NCBI GenBank assembly: GCA_903880015.1
Contig: CAIRNS010000020.1
Coordinates: 1 to 64,000 of the forward strand
Reading direction: 5' to 3'
Length of the DNA: 64,000 nt
Source of the DNA: an uncultured Elusimicrobia bacterium
Lineage (GTDB): Bacteria > Elusimicrobiota > Endomicrobiia > Endomicrobiales > CAIRNS01
The translations under genes and the position numbers were made by a program. Below, piece by piece: positions 14,834 to 21,726 of the stretch (within the stretch, counting starts at the first letter, position 1; the number at the start of each line of letters is the position of its first letter). The notes beneath the pieces were generated by a model, which saw nothing but the letters and a program-made list of their open reading frames with translations, had not been told where the DNA came from and made no database searches.

Positions 14834-15511
14834 TTAAGATAAGCGACCCGCCATGAACACAAAATAAACACCGACGCCGATGAGCAAAAGGGCAAGCGCT
14901 TTTTTCACTCGAACCATCCACACGCCGGACTTCGGCAGATAATTCACCAATGAGGCCGAGAACCCGAGCAGAAGCAGTATAGTGCACATTCCCAGAGAGA
15001 AGGTAAACATCAGCAGGCCGCCACTGATGATTGCTTTTTGCGCCGACACCATCATCAACAGCCCGCCGAGCACCGGCGCGGTACACGGCGATGCCACCAG
15101 CCCCGTACTGACGCCCAGGAAAAACGGCGCGAAGATCGAATCTCCTTTGTCCGCCGCCGTACCACTCATTCCCGGCAGAGGAATGGCGTACCAATCCATC
15201 ATGTTGCCCCCCAACACCATCATGAGTACACCGAACCCCAGGTAAACATACGGGTTCGAGGTCATCGAGCCGAACATACGCCCGCTCAGCGCCGCGGTCA
15301 TGCCCAGCAGTGTGTACACCAGCGCTAAACCCAGCACATAGAACACCGAACCGCGCACGCGCGCGGCAGTACTCCCGGAACGGGAGCCGATAAATCCAAT
15401 GATGATGGGAATAATGGGATACACGCACGGCGTCAGAGATGTTATGACCCCCGAAATATACACCCCAAAGAATGTCCCGAACGACAAATGACTGAAATTA
15501 ACTACTGGCAT
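14834..15511 (-). CDS. ccdA: CcdA/DsbD-type transmembrane thiol:disulfide electron carrier
   Basis: 225 residues from the ATG at 15511, which has AGGAGG at good spacing; a start 39 bases earlier is less likely. Six or more transmembrane helices and the two redox cysteines of the DsbD-beta/CcdA family are clear: SLTPCVYP (Cys29) and ASPCTAP (Cys143). The family moves reducing equivalents from cytoplasmic thioredoxin across the inner membrane to periplasmic thioredoxin-like proteins. It overlaps the end of the upstream ApbE-like gene by 14 bases. The TlpA encoded earlier in the operon is the obvious acceptor. Confidence 0.85.
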   Translation of the reverse strand: MPVVNFSHLSFGTFFGVYISGVITSLTPCVYPIIPIIIGFIGSRSGSTAARVRGSVFYVLGLALVYTLLGMTAALSGRMFGSMTSNPYVYLGFGVLMMVLGGNMMDWYAIPLPGMSGTAADKGDSIFAPFFLGVSTGLVASPCTAPVLGGLLMMVSAQKAIISGGLLMFTFSLGMCTILLLLGFSASLVNYLPKSGVWMVRVKKALALLLIGVGVYFVFMAGRLS

Positions 15512-16469
15512 TGACCGTACCTCCTGTTGCCATGGTAATGGCATGTTCATCTATATTGCACTGTATAACTCTACCGTCAGATGTGATAATCATTCCATTG
15601 GCATCGCGGCGGCCTTCCAAAAACACCGCGCCCTCCGTCGCGCCCAGCGCCATCACCGCCGTGGCATACGCGTTTGCAATGACCGCCGTAGGGGCAAGCA
15701 CCGTCACGCTGGACACATCGTCGCGCACTGCGGCTGTACGGGCATCGATGATGTGATGGTAGCGTTTCCCGCCGTGCTCAAAATATCGTTCATAGTCCCC
15801 CGAAGTTGCCACGGCGCCACGACTGATGTCCAGCACACCGCACGGTTTATCATCGCTCCGGAACGGGTTCTTGATGCCAATCCGCCAGGGGCGGGGCGCA
15901 TCAGCAGCGGTGTGCACGCGCATATCGCCGGCGCCATTGATGAAAAAATTTTTTATTTTCAAGCCCCGCATCAGCGTGAATGCCATATCTACCCCGTAGG
16001 ATTTTCCGATAGAGCCCAGCCCGATTCGCATCCCCTTCTCGGGCAGGAACACCGCACTGGCATCGGCATCAATCTGTATGGCGCGATAATTGACGAACCG
16101 CCGCGCTGCGGCGATGGCCGCAGGGGTTGGCGGTTTCCCGGTCGTAAAGGCCGTGCGCCAGAGCGCGCCGACGGCAGCGTAACTGATATCGAACGCGCCG
16201 CCCGTTTCATCAGAAATCCGGCGGGCAAAATCAATCAAGGTCAATATCTCGTGCGAGACCTTCACCGGCCGGATGCCGGCATTATCGTTTATATCGTTAA
16301 ATGGACTGGGCCGGAAGTCGGTCAACAGATCTTCTACCCGCGCTATCTCGGCGTGGGCAAACTCGATGACCTGATCCAACCGCTCGCGCCGCTGAACGCG
16401 CGAATCGGGAAAAGCATTAATACTAAAAGGCGACCCCATATGCGCGCGGGAAGATATCACTGGTTCCAT
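15498..16469 (-). CDS. ApbE-like FAD:protein FMN transferase paralogue, divergent
   Basis: About 323 residues from the ATG at 16469, which has GGAG six bases upstream; the frame is open to a GTG at 16499. ApbE proteins move FMN from FAD onto Thr/Ser of exported proteins. The fold markers are present: ATSGDYERYF, RYHHIIDARTA and the ANAYATA motif. Three points are odd. No signal peptide or lipobox is evident. The usual D-A-x-S-T metal site reads N-A-Y-A-T, losing the Asp. The canonical G-x-x-x-K-G-Y segment reads GSIGKSYGV. It may be a weakly active or specialised transferase, or inactive. Neighbours are ccdA and the Rrf2 gene. Confidence 0.78.
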   Translation of the reverse strand: MEPVISSRAHMGSPFSINAFPDSRVQRRERLDQVIEFAHAEIARVEDLLTDFRPSPFNDINDNAGIRPVKVSHEILTLIDFARRISDETGGAFDISYAAVGALWRTAFTTGKPPTPAAIAAARRFVNYRAIQIDADASAVFLPEKGMRIGLGSIGKSYGVDMAFTLMRGLKIKNFFINGAGDMRVHTAADAPRPWRIGIKNPFRSDDKPCGVLDISRGAVATSGDYERYFEHGGKRYHHIIDARTAAVRDDVSSVTVLAPTAVIANAYATAVMALGATEGAVFLEGRRDANGMIITSDGRVIQCNIDEHAITMATGGTVNASS

Positions 16470-16538
16470 CAGAAACTCCATCACTGCCTGAGCCGACACA
16501 CCGCGGCATTGAGTTCAGGTAACCGCCGCAGCAAGCGT

Positions 16539-17000
16539 TTAGCGCTTCGTTGCTGTAAACATTTTCACGGGAATGCGCGGCCGTAGCAACACCTTATTTA
16601 CAGCTACCAAACTTGCCAGCGTTATCTTGTTGAGCTCACCGTTGACACAGCGCTCCACTTCCTTCAAGGCACCCCGCATCAGACAGGTATGCCAGTTGCG
16701 GCACGATTGCGGCCGATCATCGCAATCGTTGAATCTAAGCGGGCCTTGCGTAGCGGTGATTATTTCGATGATGTTTATCTCCTGCGGCGGCCGCCCAATC
16801 CTGAACCCACCGCCTTTTCCCTTGCACGATTTCAGCAGGCCCCGCTTGCCCAGTTGCTGCATAATCTTGCGAACAAACGAAAGAGAAATTCCCAAGTCCC
16901 TATGAATGTATCCCGCGGTCGAGCAGGCCTCATCCTGCCGGCGGGCCATAGTGACAAGAATCCGTATTGCATAGTCAGTATTTCTCGTTATTAATTTCAT
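16539..17000 (-). CDS. Rrf2-family transcriptional regulator with Fe-S-type cysteines
   Basis: 153 residues from the ATG at 17000, which gives the family's standard start MKLITRNTDYAIRIL; the frame extends further upstream without support. A winged helix (about 10-70) contains SFVRKIMQQLGKRGLLKSCKGKGGGF. Three cysteines at about 93, 100 and 106 (C-x6-C-x5-C) sit where IscR, NsrR and RsrR bind an Fe-S cluster. This suggests it senses iron-sulfur status, NO or redox state. It is encoded inside the redox operon and could regulate the operon promoter through the inverted repeat at 21696-21720. Confidence 0.87.
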   Translation of the reverse strand: MKLITRNTDYAIRILVTMARRQDEACSTAGYIHRDLGISLSFVRKIMQQLGKRGLLKSCKGKGGGFRIGRPPQEINIIEIITATQGPLRFNDCDDRPQSCRNWHTCLMRGALKEVERCVNGELNKITLASLVAVNKVLLRPRIPVKMFTATKR

Positions 17001-17031
17001 GATGATGTAATTATATCCACGCGTTCCCCTA

Positions 17032-18075
17032 TCAATGCTTTGCCGCTGCAGACATGTCGGTATAGGTTGCCGGCACTTCCGGAGACAGTTGCAGCTGCCC
17101 CGTATCGTCAACCACAACGGCCTTAAACCCGGGCCGTTGAGATATTTTTTTGAACCCTATTTCTTTGCCCAACACGAAAAAAGCGGTTGACCAGGCGTCG
17201 GCGGCGAACGCGGTCGGGGCGATTACCGTAACGCTTTCCAGCCCGCGCGCCGAATAGCCGGTTGCAGGGTTCAGGATGTGGTGATACCGCGTGCCGTTAA
17301 CCATGATGAATTTCTCGTAATCTCCCGAGGTAGCCAAGCCCTCATTCTCGACCTCAATAACGCCGATAATCCCTTCGCCGCGGGGATTTTTTACACCAAT
17401 CCGCCATTTTCTATCGGGCTGAGACCTTCCCAAAGCGTAGAATTCTCCCCCGGTATCGACAAGGGCGTTTTTGATGCCGTCGGCTTTCAGAATCCGTACC
17501 GCTTCATCAGCCGCGTACCCGGAAACAACGGCCCCAAAATCCAAACCGACACCCTTCTGTCCGGCCCGAATCTCTTGGTCGGTAATCATTATTTTCCCCT
17601 CTTGGACCAACGGCAGAAGGGACTGTATGTCCTGCGGGCGGGGCAAGACCGGATTGTCGCTGTAAAAATGCCACAACTGCACCAGGGGATACACGCGGGG
17701 CTCCAGTACTCCATCGGATGCATCGTGAAACCGGGCGACACTGCGCGCGACGCGAATGATCTCGGGGTCGCGGATAGGAACGCCGCTGTTATTAAATTCT
17801 GAAAGCGGGCTTGTCGAAATCAGCACATTGAATTTTGCATCTATTTCGGCAAGACGGCTATAGGCGTGTTCTATTGCCTGCCGCGCATTTTTCTCGGACC
17901 CGGGGATAACGATGGAACACCGGGCCCCGAATAGAAAACGGACTCCCGTGACCGGTTCCCGGGCGCACCCAACCGCGAAAAGAATGCACATCAGTGCGCC
18001 GCCAAAAACAACGAAGACCTTGGCAAAATAGGCGGGACGAATATGAAACATACAGGAACCGCTATGGCGTATCAT
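17032..18075 (-). CDS. apbE: FAD:protein FMN transferase ApbE, lipoprotein
   Basis: 347 residues. A hydrophobic segment ends in the lipobox LFAVGC (Cys37), so it should be a membrane-anchored, periplasm-facing ApbE. Family motifs are good: GLDFGAVVSGYAADEAV, ALVDTGGEFYALG, ATSGDYEKF, RYHHILNPATGY and AADAWSTAFFVLG, the last with the metal-binding Asp. One deviation is S-G-Y where most members have K-G-Y. It transfers FMN to [S/T]-G-A-[S/T] motifs of exported proteins. The DUF3570 protein, with two such motifs, ends two bases upstream, which makes it the likely substrate. Confidence 0.92.
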   Translation of the reverse strand: MIRHSGSCMFHIRPAYFAKVFVVFGGALMCILFAVGCAREPVTGVRFLFGARCSIVIPGSEKNARQAIEHAYSRLAEIDAKFNVLISTSPLSEFNNSGVPIRDPEIIRVARSVARFHDASDGVLEPRVYPLVQLWHFYSDNPVLPRPQDIQSLLPLVQEGKIMITDQEIRAGQKGVGLDFGAVVSGYAADEAVRILKADGIKNALVDTGGEFYALGRSQPDRKWRIGVKNPRGEGIIGVIEVENEGLATSGDYEKFIMVNGTRYHHILNPATGYSARGLESVTVIAPTAFAADAWSTAFFVLGKEIGFKKISQRPGFKAVVVDDTGQLQLSPEVPATYTDMSAAAKH

Positions 18076-18077
18076 GA

Positions 18078-19184
18078 TTACATTTTCATATGTAGGCTCA
18101 GATAGAGAATCTGAGCCATCAGATCGGATTTTGACACCGAATTATAGACATGGTCATAGTTTATGTACGAAGACTGATCATACTGTTCAAACATGATATC
18201 AATAGTCAGACCGGGCAATACCTCGTACTGCACACCGGCGCCATAGAGTCCTGCAGAAAATGCAGCCAATTTCTGGTCGTCAGTCATATACAGCTCTTCC
18301 TGCGTGTACACATTTTTATAGAACGAGGCAGCACCTTGGGCATAATAGCGGGCCCGCAGTGATACCATTAATGTGTCGGTAAGATAGCGGTTATATTTGA
18401 CCCCCAATGTGTTGGACAGAACGCCCCAGTTATCGTAATAGTAGCGGTAATCGAACTGAATCGACGAGAGCAGGATCCCCTCGATCGCAACATTATAGAA
18501 CAGTCCGAAAGCTTCCTTGTCGCGAACGGCAGGATGGCGTTCCATATAATAGAAATCATTTATGGGGATGCGGTGATACGGGTTGCCTAAATACCCGTCA
18601 TCGCGCGCGAAACTTCCCACAATCCGCATTTCCGTGCTCGGCGTCAGCACCCGGGTGTACGCAAGATCATAAATCTTTGACAGACGGGTGTCGGTCCAGG
18701 CAACGCCGAAAGGGAATAGTTTATCATTGAAATTCGAATAACTCAGTGACAACGCCTGATTGCGATTATCAAATTCCGTGGTCCATGAAAGGAAATAGGA
18801 AACGGAAGAATAATCATCCTCACCGCTGTGGTCGCCCGTAATCGAAAATGTGTTGTTCTTTATTTTCTGCGCGATGCCGGCCGATATTTCCCGGCGATAT
18901 TCGATATGATCAGGCGTAACATGTGCCGTAGCGCCGGTTATGCCATCGAGTATCGGAATCTTGCGGGAGGCCCCGGATATGCCGTCGACAATCCGCGTCA
19001 TGGTCAGCTTTGTTTTCGGCGTCAGGTCGATCGAAGCATCCAGACCCTCTGTCGTGACATTCGTCATGTTATTGTCGCTGTAGGCCACGTACTTAAACCC
19101 CACGTCCCGCTCAGCACGCACTCTCCCCGCGCTAAATAACAGGAGAAGCGCTGCACATAATGAACGCTGCAGGAACTTAAGCAT
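18078..19184 (-). CDS. DUF3570 outer-membrane protein with two candidate flavinylation motifs
   Basis: 368 residues with a signal peptide (1-24, cleavage near RVRA). From about 95 on it is a run of alternating amphipathic strands rich in Tyr, as in outer-membrane barrels. I assign DUF3570 from its appearance and its ApbE/TlpA/DUF4266 neighbours. Before the barrel lie two closely spaced motifs, D67-G-I-S-G-A-S73 and D80-G-I-T-G-A-T86. Both fit the D-x-x-[S/T]-G-A-[S/T] site that ApbE flavinylates in NqrC and RnfG; Ser73 and Thr86 would carry the FMN. The ATG abuts the tlpA stop codon, so translation is coupled. Function is not established; a role in electron transfer at the outer membrane is inferred. 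Confidence 0.8.
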   Translation of the reverse strand: MLKFLQRSLCAALLLLFSAGRVRAERDVGFKYVAYSDNNMTNVTTEGLDASIDLTPKTKLTMTRIVDGISGASRKIPILDGITGATAHVTPDHIEYRREISAGIAQKIKNNTFSITGDHSGEDDYSSVSYFLSWTTEFDNRNQALSLSYSNFNDKLFPFGVAWTDTRLSKIYDLAYTRVLTPSTEMRIVGSFARDDGYLGNPYHRIPINDFYYMERHPAVRDKEAFGLFYNVAIEGILLSSIQFDYRYYYDNWGVLSNTLGVKYNRYLTDTLMVSLRARYYAQGAASFYKNVYTQEELYMTDDQKLAAFSAGLYGAGVQYEVLPGLTIDIMFEQYDQSSYINYDHVYNSVSKSDLMAQILYLSLHMKM

Positions 19185-19712
19185 CTATTTATCGTGCGCC
19201 TTTCCGGTAGATGGCAGAGTCGACTGAATCTCGTTAAACAACTTTTCAAAATCAGCAGGCGGACGGGGACCCGCAAAGCGTACTATGCCGTCGCCGTCTA
19301 TGATCATATTATACGGGAAACCAGCGAGCCCATACTGTTTGGCAACCGCGGTATTGGGATCCAAAAGAACGGGAAAAGGCAATTGGAACTTTGCAATGAA
19401 ACGCTGCACCTTTTCCTGGCGTTCCTGCACGCTAATCGAGACAATGACCAGCCCGCTATCTTTGTATTTCGCGTACAGTTCCTTGAGCGTAGCCATCTCC
19501 TCCTGACAATTCTCGCACCATGTCGCGAAAAAATTAACAAAAACAATCCGTTTGTGCCGGTAGCTCTCCAGCGCGAACTCTGATGTTCCCGCAGCGTCGT
19601 TTAAGGTAAATGTCGGAGCGATATCATCAACCTTCACCGCCGTCAGCGCCTGCGATGCCAGCACTCCCAACCCCATAATCACCGCTGCTGCAACTACTGC
19701 AATTTTCTTCAT
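19185..19712 (-). CDS. TlpA-like periplasmic thioredoxin
   Basis: 175 residues from the ATG at 19712 (MKKIAVVAAAVIMG), preceded by AAGGAGAG; the frame is open further upstream. A cleavable signal peptide is followed by an AhpC/TSA-type thioredoxin fold. The active site is W-C-E-N-C (Cys66 and Cys69) after VFVNFFAT, and the cis-Pro loop is GFPYNMII. This is the TlpA/ResA group of reductants or peroxidatic proteins. It lies between the DUF4266 lipoprotein gene (22 bases) and the DUF3570 gene (0 bases). CcdA at the end of the operon should keep it reduced. Confidence 0.88.
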   Translation of the reverse strand: MKKIAVVAAAVIMGLGVLASQALTAVKVDDIAPTFTLNDAAGTSEFALESYRHKRIVFVNFFATWCENCQEEMATLKELYAKYKDSGLVIVSISVQERQEKVQRFIAKFQLPFPVLLDPNTAVAKQYGLAGFPYNMIIDGDGIVRFAGPRPPADFEKLFNEIQSTLPSTGKAHDK

Positions 19713-19734
19713 AATTCTCTCCTTGTGTTCATCG

Positions 19735-19965
19735 TTACTTGCATCCGCATCCGCCGCCCGCACCGCCGTACCCCCCGCTGGAGGCCTCGCGCGCGTTCAG
19801 CATGTGCTGCTCATAAGTCGAACTGCCCTGCTCGCTGATAAACTTCATGCTCGGGTCCGCCAATAGGCCTTTCTGCCACGGCGAGACCGTAGTGCATCCG
19901 CTCGCCAAAGTCATTCCTACTGCCAACGCCGCCAACAACCATCCTGTCTTGCATGTTCGTTTCAT
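19735..19965 (-). CDS. DUF4266 small lipoprotein with C-terminal Cys-Gly-Cys
   Basis: 76 residues from the ATG at 19965, which has AGGA upstream; a start 21 bases earlier overlaps the preceding stop. A signal peptide ends in the lipobox LASGC (Cys24). Then comes the W-Q-K-G-x-L-A-D-P-x-M segment that I associate with DUF4266, and a Gly-rich tail AREASSGGYGGAGGGCGCK ending in C73-G-C75. The paired cysteines at the very end look like a metal, disulfide or cofactor site. Proteins of this family are seen, as I recall, next to DUF3570, TlpA-like and ApbE genes. The biochemical role is unknown. Confidence 0.8.
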   Translation of the reverse strand: MKRTCKTGWLLAALAVGMTLASGCTTVSPWQKGLLADPSMKFISEQGSSTYEQHMLNAREASSGGYGGAGGGCGCK

Positions 19966-19982
19966 AAATTCATTCCTGTATC

Positions 19983-21506
19983 TCAAGGCGTATAATTTGC
20001 CGAGAGCGAGGTTATGTATGTCCCGTTATTCCCGGTGGAGCTTGTCGCAGTAGCCCCGATACTGATTGTCCCGGAAAAAGGCATCTCAACGCTGTTCTGA
20101 GTACGCGCAACTATGCGGTACCGATAGTTACCAGCTGACACGACCGTCCCTGCAGTATTATTGGGAGGGTTCCACGATGCGGTATAACTGCCGGCAGACT
20201 TGCTCGCGCCCGTGGTCCCGTTCGTCTGATGGGTTGAGGCATTCCACCACGTCGGCAAATAGGTGCTGCTCCCCGCGGCATGCGTGGTCACAAAAAGAGT
20301 CCTGACAAAAACACCGTTATTATCTTCAATCCATACCGCTACTTCAGGTTTTGTATTCTGCGTATAACTCACGACCGCGGTGCTGGCAGCGTCCGGCTTT
20401 ACTCCGGCCGTAGTGATATGCAGGACGATTGGCTGGGTGGTACCCCAATTGTTCAGGGCATCTTTGCCATGTACATAAACAGTGTGGTCGCCGGTTATGA
20501 GCGCGGCTATATTGACCGCTGTTTTGGTAACGGCTTCCGTGGGAGAATTGAAAGCGCCATCCACGGCCGTCATTGCAACGCCGGCGCCGTTAGCCCCCAC
20601 CGTGTCAACAAAATACTCCGCCGCCGAAATGTTGGCATTACCGACGGCGGCATCTGAAATCGTTGCCGTAATAGTTATAGTGGTTACTCCGGCAGTGGGG
20701 TTCGGCGTCAAAGCGGGTCCGACGGTCACCTGAGGACCGGTTGTATCTGATCCACCACCCGCCGAAACGGTGAGTGCAAAAGTTTGTGAAGCGCCCCAGT
20801 TATTGGACGCATCGCGACCGTTAACATAGAGCGTGTGAGCCCCCGCCGACAGCCCGGTCATCGTCACCAAGCCGCTGACGCTTTCCGTTACAGAATTATA
20901 CACACCATCTTGGGCGTTAAGCACAATACCCGCGCCGTTAGCGCCCTGCGCATCTATAAAGCATTCTGCAGCCGTCACATTGGAACCCCCGGTGCTCGCA
21001 TCGGAAACCAGTGCGGTTACGAGCACCGCGGTCGATCCCGCAGTAGGATTGGGAGTCGCGCTCAAACTGCTGGTCAGCGGCCCCGTAGTATCGGACCCGA
21101 CATTCTCCGTCGTAAAATTGAGGAGCGCCGATGTTACGCTATTGCCCAGCGTATCATAACTGGTAGCAACAAAATAGTATTTGGTGCCTGAGACAAGGTT
21201 GGTGAGATCTACCGCGTGCGCAACAGTGGCGTCAAGCGCGGCAATCTCTGTCCCGAGCGCGGCTGTCAGGCCATAATTAACGCGGGATGCCGCCGGCTTG
21301 ACCGTGCGCCAAACAATCTGCGCGCTATTATTAGTGATTGCAGAAGCAAAAAGGTCGGTTATACTGGGTGGTTGAACCGTGTTCGCAGGTCGCGGAGGAA
21401 CAGGCAGTATCTGACGGAATATTTGATCACAACCGGTCAGCGTGAACACTGCTATAAGAGAAAAAACCAACACCATATATAGGGAATGTTTCAAGAATAT
21501 CCTCAA
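19983..21506 (-). CDS. Lipoprotein with FN3, two repeats and a DUF2271-like C-terminus
   Basis: 507 residues from a TTG at 21506, kept because it supplies the basic n-region; the next ATG is at 21476. The lipobox is LTGC (Cys26). Residues about 45-135 form an FN3 domain. Two repeats of about 115 residues follow (138-250 and 253-368), each starting S-D-T-T-G-P and containing NNWG. The last 135 residues resemble DUF2271: VAVWIEDNNGVFVRTL, a Trp-Trp pair, then N-G-T-T-G-A-S-K-S-A-G (TGAS at 432-435) and SWN. The TGAS resembles an ApbE flavinylation site, with Asn in place of the leading Asp. First gene of the redox operon. Confidence 0.72.
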   Translation of the reverse strand: MRIFLKHSLYMVLVFSLIAVFTLTGCDQIFRQILPVPPRPANTVQPPSITDLFASAITNNSAQIVWRTVKPAASRVNYGLTAALGTEIAALDATVAHAVDLTNLVSGTKYYFVATSYDTLGNSVTSALLNFTTENVGSDTTGPLTSSLSATPNPTAGSTAVLVTALVSDASTGGSNVTAAECFIDAQGANGAGIVLNAQDGVYNSVTESVSGLVTMTGLSAGAHTLYVNGRDASNNWGASQTFALTVSAGGGSDTTGPQVTVGPALTPNPTAGVTTITITATISDAAVGNANISAAEYFVDTVGANGAGVAMTAVDGAFNSPTEAVTKTAVNIAALITGDHTVYVHGKDALNNWGTTQPIVLHITTAGVKPDAASTAVVSYTQNTKPEVAVWIEDNNGVFVRTLFVTTHAAGSSTYLPTWWNASTHQTNGTTGASKSAGSYTASWNPPNNTAGTVVSAGNYRYRIVARTQNSVEMPFSGTISIGATATSSTGNNGTYITSLSANYTP

Positions 21507-21695: not shown

Positions 21696-21720
21696 TAATG
21701 ATACTATATTACTATCATTA
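21696..21720. promoter_or_regulatory. Inverted repeat inside the promoter, candidate operator
   Basis: Arms TAATGATA (21696-21703) and TATCATTA (21713-21720) are perfect inverted repeats with a 9-base centre. They span the whole promoter spacer and the -10 element, so a bound dimer would block RNA polymerase. The Rrf2 protein encoded in the operon is the natural candidate; this is inference. Confidence 0.6.
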
Positions 21721-21726
21721 TGTCAA
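21698..21726 (-). promoter_or_regulatory. Promoter of the flavin/thiol redox operon
   Basis: Reading leftward, TTGACA (21721-21726), a 17-base spacer and TATCAT (21698-21703). Transcription should start near 21691, giving a leader of about 185 bases before the first gene. The leader contains small hairpins, for example CAAATC/GATTTG and GTTTCA/TGAAAC. Confidence 0.75.

Follow-up and report, generated by a model that had tools for sequence, protein, structure and literature searches.

The window analysed here is a 64,000-nucleotide stretch of contig CAIRNS010000020.1, from the nearly complete 1.8 Mb genome (G000, the host genome) of an uncultured Elusimicrobia bacterium. Eight collinear open reading frames (ORFs) lie on its minus strand at positions 14834-21506 and encode a DUF2271 lipoprotein, a DUF4266 protein, a TlpA-type thioredoxin, a DUF3570 barrel, the transferase ApbE1, an Rrf2 regulator, a second transferase, ApbE2, and CcdA (Table 1). 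This arrangement had been proposed in an original prediction from the sequence, and all eight ORFs were recovered at their expected positions with matching Pfam domains. The tightest junctions were recovered as well, with no base between TlpA and DUF3570, two bases between DUF3570 and ApbE1, and an overlap between ApbE2 and CcdA. We consider it reasonably likely that the locus is a thiol-flavin operon, in which electrons run from CcdA through TlpA and DUF4266 to flavin mononucleotide (FMN) on the barrel, the flavin being added by ApbE1 or ApbE2 before the barrel is inserted, under the control of Rrf2.

Table 1. Features of the operon and of its promoter region (positions in the window; AF2, AlphaFold2; pLDDT, predicted local distance difference test; pTM, predicted template modelling score)
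Feature	Position	Strand	Evidence or remark
Lipoprotein (lipobox LTGC-D) with FN3/Y_Y_Y-like repeats and C-terminal DUF2271	19983..21506	-	Pfam DUF2271 8.8e-12; orthologues in the G002 and G339 clusters
Predicted TGAS flavinylation motif in DUF2271 (NGTTGAS, residues 432-435)	20202..20213	-	Sequence
DUF4266 small lipoprotein ending GGGCGCK (CXC)	19735..19965	-	Pfam 2.7e-18
TlpA/ResA-like periplasmic thioredoxin, WCENC	19185..19712	-	Pfam AhpC-TSA 2.6e-26; ATG start with AAGGAG upstream
DUF3570 16-strand outer-membrane barrel with signal peptide	18078..19184	-	Pfam 9.8e-38; AF2 pLDDT 87.6, pTM 0.81; Foldseek
Predicted flavinylation site 1 at the extracellular end of strand 3 (residues 67-73, DGISGAS)	18966..18986	-	Conservation; models
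Predicted flavinylation site 2 in the loop between strands 3 and 4 (residues 83-86, TGAT), restricted to Elusimicrobiota-type proteins	18927..18938	-	Alignment
ApbE1, secreted lipoprotein, FAD:protein FMN transferase	17032..18075	-	Pfam ApbE (PF02424) 5.4e-72 or 1.2e-69 (the figures for the two ApbEs); catalytic Asp/Ser/His kept
Rrf2-family regulator, C-X6-C-X5-C (probable Fe-S ligands)	16539..17000	-	Pfam Rrf2 2.7e-33
ApbE2, signal-less; Asp-Ser-His triad with Asn in place of Asp	15498..16499	-	Sister to the ApbE of f16 DUF3570 clusters
CcdA/DsbD-type transmembrane thiol transporter	14834..15511	-	Pfam DsbD_TM 1.8e-37; two conserved Cys
25-bp interrupted palindrome TAATGATA-N9-TATCATTA overlapping the operon promoter -10	21696..21720	.	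Unique in genome
Promoter-like TTGACA-17-TATCAT	21698..21726	-	11/12 matches; about 190 bases upstream of the first gene

The wider DUF3570 sample comprised 80 named loci from Pseudomonadota, Verrucomicrobiota, Krumholzibacteria and Elusimicrobiota, together with Elusimicrobiota and plasmid loci. Because the scan was seeded with two proteobacterial-type DUF3570 sequences, Bacteroidota and Chlorobi are under-sampled. In 70 loci DUF3570 is flanked on both sides by 3 kb or more; the neighbours there include DUF4266 (69 loci), a thioredoxin-like gene (68) and ApbE (66). This association is not due to chance, and the neighbourhood is conserved. Within Elusimicrobiota, DUF3570 occurs in 14 of 341 genomes, so the operon is sporadic in the phylum. 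DUF3570 relatives were also sought in viral contigs, where none was found. Four DUF3570-DUF4266 clusters (L066, L034, L037, L069) have no ApbE detected within 3.5 kb; the sole ApbE found in the L066 genome groups with secreted enzymes of other Gammaproteobacteria.

The DUF3570 protein carries a signal peptide and amphipathic, even-numbered strands, as judged by hydropathy alternation, and adopts a barrel fold. AF2 modelling with 40 sequences gave 16 strands for both the window protein and its Rheinheimera baltica homologue (pLDDT 89.9 for the latter), and the best Foldseek matches are general outer-membrane barrels, with PelB at the top. In the window model, the loops on one side amount to 103 residues and the turns on the other side to 21. 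Outer-membrane barrels generally keep both termini in the periplasm, which makes the long loops extracellular. Site 1 closes strand 3 on the long-loop side in both models (D67-S73 in the window protein, D77-S83 in that of Rheinheimera). By hydropathy alternation, D67 and G71 appear to face the lumen, and S73 would do so by the same phase; most invariant strand residues, including R97, R221, R247 and R279, also read as lumen-facing. Lying at the extracellular end of strand 3, site 1 would be out of reach of a periplasmic ApbE once the barrel is inserted, which implies that FMN is attached earlier.

The original prediction had staked itself beforehand on the conservation of the ApbE-type motifs (SGAS, residues 70-73, and TGAT) among DUF3570 homologues. 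In site 1, nearly all aligned homologues retain D67 and the S/T acceptor, and a barrel with an ApbE-type site stands on this basis. The second motif is not general, but confined to the Elusimicrobiota-type proteins among those sampled. Meanwhile, a third potential site had been overlooked: the TGAS of the DUF2271 lipoprotein. The segment NGTTGAS is conserved in G002, the closest relative, and in G339 (identical in loci L019 and L022), and we predict from this motif that the lipoprotein is a second flavinylation substrate.

The two ApbEs had been treated without distinction of compartment, which has to be corrected. ApbE1 is secreted and its triad Ser, His and Asp are all kept; ApbE2 lacks a signal peptide even in the longest reading frame, and Asn replaces Asp beside the retained Ser and His. 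The ApbE2 type is widespread, for about 80 ApbE ORFs adjoining DUF3570 in Pseudomonadota, Verrucomicrobiota, Krumholzibacteria and most Elusimicrobiota have no hydrophobic N-terminal stretch. Rheinheimera and Paraglaciecola include isolates of this kind. Among ApbEs sampled away from DUF3570, a signal-like N-terminus is found in 34 of 36. One of the two exceptions is ApbE2 of the window, which was counted apart from its DUF3570 because the locus stops short; the other is a borderline case. The secreted exceptions beside DUF3570 are ApbE1 and the enzymes of G002, G339 and two Hymenobacter plasmids, and the window holds the only operon seen with both types. G287, G353 and G354, which are draft metagenome assemblies, yielded no ApbE other than the signal-less one. 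We found no paper on ApbE, beta-barrel, signal peptide and flavin together that addresses the question of cytosolic attachment.

In the signal-less ApbEs beside DUF3570, the triad Asp position holds Gly in 71, Asn in 10 and a gap in one, and the intact secreted ApbEs beside DUF3570 have Asp in all cases. As a marker of cytosolic ApbEs, loss of the Asp is weakened, since 15 of the 36 ApbEs away from DUF3570 also lack it (Asn or Ser), 14 of these with a signal-like N-terminus. Convergent loss of the signal peptide is not claimed, as the data do not reject a tree in which all signal-less DUF3570 ApbEs form one clade (approximately unbiased test, p 0.34). In the tree, ApbE1 groups with the ApbEs of G002, G339 and contig C25 of the host genome. 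ApbE2 is sister to the ApbE of f16, a single family whose clusters mostly read DUF4266-DUF3570-ApbE2-CcdA-TlpA. The f16 genomes (loci L128-L139) also encode secreted ApbE lipoproteins that form a clade of their own, specific to the family and on a very long stem branch. The Hymenobacter plasmid copies (L174 3248-4344, L177 3935-5187) look broken, with ApbE split in one and DUF3570 in the other; both have an ApbE of the secreted type, which retains the Asp where it is intact.

A secreted transferase raises the matter of its flavin adenine dinucleotide (FAD). In Listeria, EetB (PF07456) is required for FAD export (PMC9973259). We found EetB in exactly three of the 14 Elusimicrobiota genomes with DUF3570, namely those whose adjoining ApbE is secreted, whereas 35 genomes from the wider set gave no EetB. 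ApbE1 belongs to a minority type among DUF3570-linked ApbEs that is found with an EetB FAD exporter. EetA and EetB lie inside the DUF3570 cluster in G002 and G339; the EetB exporters of the host genome are located outside the window operon, and the original reading of the flavin route had missed them. One lies in a second flavinylation locus adjoining complex I-like genes (L032, contig C25, 7148-11727), which contains EetA (NusG_II), EetB fused to an ECF-T domain, a secreted ApbE3, a secreted FMN_bind protein with SGAT, and a porin-like protein of 376 aa with no Pfam match. The second EetB is at G000:C7:209269-209712.

In most lineages with DUF3570 clusters, the flavin is probably added in the cytosol. 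We tentatively extend this idea, with a little less than even confidence: in most bacteria with DUF3570, a signal-less ApbE would add FMN in the cytosol, export and folding would place the flavin at the surface end of the barrel, and the window operon would be intermediate between this route and that of a secreted ApbE with an FAD exporter. The operon appears to join an ApbE2-CcdA module like that of f16 to a transferase of the secreted ApbE1 type, and G002 has ApbE1, CcdA and EetAB with ApbE2 absent. The window operon may thus record a switch from cytosolic to periplasmic flavinylation.

Several observations weigh against the preferred thiol-flavin scheme or parts of it. In DUF3570 of G002, SAAS and TSAT replace SGAS and TGAT. 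Conserved residues tend towards the extracellular half of the barrel without significance (p = 0.08), and their clustering was dropped as a claim. The EetB partition is confounded by phylogeny, since G000 and G002 belong to the same order and f16 is one family. Signal peptides were scored by a hydropathy window, not by SignalP. The Hymenobacter clusters carry a secreted ApbE, so cytosolic attachment is not universal. With Gly or Asn for the triad Asp, activity of the signal-less ApbEs is not assured, and ApbE2, which lacks the TG of the DxxTG motif, may be decaying.

A less probable, though still plausible, alternative is that ApbE1 alone flavinylates in the periplasm and ApbE2 is a relic retained by translation coupling to CcdA. 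The catalytic residues of ApbE1 are intact and its gene directly follows DUF3570; the closest relative keeps ApbE1 and CcdA without ApbE2; and conserved motifs of ApbE2 are altered, with TA for TG and KS for KG. On the other hand, ApbE2 is an intact ORF that retains two residues of the triad, and its f16 orthologues are the very ApbEs that adjoin DUF3570 there, in the same ApbE2-CcdA order.

Turning to the thiol arm, the motif GGGCGC[KN] is present in all 11 aligned Elusimicrobiota DUF4266 copies and also in Vibrio and Hymenobacter DG25B. DUF4266 holds the only CXC of the cluster and the mature barrel contains no cysteine, so that the natural relay would be CcdA, TlpA, DUF4266 and FMN. The original proposal of a barrel served by a thiol arm within a conserved neighbourhood is supported as regards the feeding of the barrel; a thiol step in barrel maturation is unlikely, given the cysteine-free mature protein. 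A search of the host genome for the cytochrome c assembly protein PF01578 found none, which leaves CcdA and TlpA without an evident cytochrome c role, and both are probably dedicated to this system, as judged from gene content. In G002, a second TlpA-CcdA pair (L019, 14015-15212) lies directly upstream of its DUF2271 gene.

It is also conceivable that the thiol arm works in folding or in the loading of a metal, for instance by keeping the CXC of DUF4266 reduced for a metal, rather than feeding the flavin. CXC motifs can bind metal, and proteins of the TlpA and CcdA type mature metal sites and disulfides elsewhere. We regard this explanation as unlikely, because the lack of cysteine in the barrel, the near-constant linkage of DUF4266 to DUF3570 and the lack of PF01578 in the host genome all weigh against it. 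Still more improbable is that the signal-less ApbEs act on a cytosolic protein and adjoin DUF3570 for another reason: cytosolic ApbEs for a soluble fumarate reductase do exist in Klebsiella (PMC12052999), but the signal-less ApbE adjoins DUF3570 across four phyla, DUF3570 is a proven ApbE substrate (PMC8238504), and no cytosolic FMN_bind protein was found in the host genome, whose single FMN_bind protein is secreted and encoded at another locus, leaving no evident cytosolic FMN_bind target for ApbE2.

The upstream region offers a candidate for regulation. The palindrome overlapping the promoter occurs nowhere else in the genome at up to two mismatches, and by its position is a probable Rrf2 operator. 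The cysteine spacing of Rrf2 resembles, without equalling, that of IscR or NsrR. An Rfam scan of 12-24 kb found no RNA family.

For the preferred thiol-flavin operon, we infer flavinylation in the window organism, cytosolic attachment, the direction of electron flow, the acceptor and Rrf2 control as follows. Reductant from the cytosol would enter CcdA and reach TlpA; the next carrier is most likely the CXC of DUF4266, which would pass electrons to FMN covalently bound on the barrel, and possibly also on the DUF2271 lipoprotein; the final acceptor would lie at or beyond the outer membrane. The barrel FMN would be lumen-facing at the extracellular end of strand 3, having been attached before insertion. 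It could be attached by secreted ApbE1 with FAD exported by EetB-type transporters, or by ApbE2 acting on the cytosolic precursor, which would match the arrangement usually seen among the related clusters in the sample. The probable role of Rrf2 is repression at the promoter palindrome, with Fe-S or redox state as the signal.

Exported ApbE substrates are normally assumed to receive their flavin outside the cytosol, which raises the question of how FAD gets there. If DUF3570 is modified before export, this supply problem would disappear for these bacteria, and the presence of a flavin on the outer side of an outer-membrane barrel would be explained. Sec and BAM would then have to handle a chain bearing covalent FMN. 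Cytochrome-poor bacteria would gain a possible electron route to the surface.

The window operon belongs to the DsbD/DUF3570 thiol-flavin systems, a class already known, and does not represent a new system. Clusters of DsbD, ApbE, DUF3570, a thioredoxin-like protein and DUF4266 (CXC) have been described, with a thioredoxin-like/flavin hybrid route proposed for them (Meheust et al., 2021; PMC8238504). In E. coli, the same study demonstrated ApbE-dependent flavinylation of Chlorobium luteolum DUF3570 at two sites and of a DUF2271, the latter type at a TGAS-type motif (PMC8238504). The chemistry is less undefined than originally supposed, in a class that is still little understood. The window shares with these 'DsbD systems' all five components, the CXC of DUF4266 and the [S/T]GA[S/T] motifs of a DUF3570 beside ApbE; beyond these, its operon includes a predicted DUF2271 substrate, a pair of ApbEs that differ in compartment, and Rrf2 with the promoter palindrome. 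DUF2271/ApbE pairs (PMC8238504, PMC11334425) likewise set a TGAS-bearing DUF2271 next to a secreted ApbE, whereas the window lipoprotein joins its DUF2271 domain to FN3-like repeats and occurs together with DUF3570. The Klebsiella ApbE (PMC12052999) also lacks a signal peptide, but ApbE2 has as its neighbouring substrate an outer-membrane barrel, which is exported, and carries Asn for the triad Asp. As in the EetB/FmnA export system of Listeria (PMC9973259), EetA, EetB and ECF-T-like genes accompany a secreted ApbE in G002, G339 and contig C25, although the exporter genes of the host genome lie outside the window operon. What is new here is the signal-less ApbE2 with its counterparts beside DUF3570 in other phyla, the position of the site in the barrel model, the two ApbE types together and the promoter palindrome.

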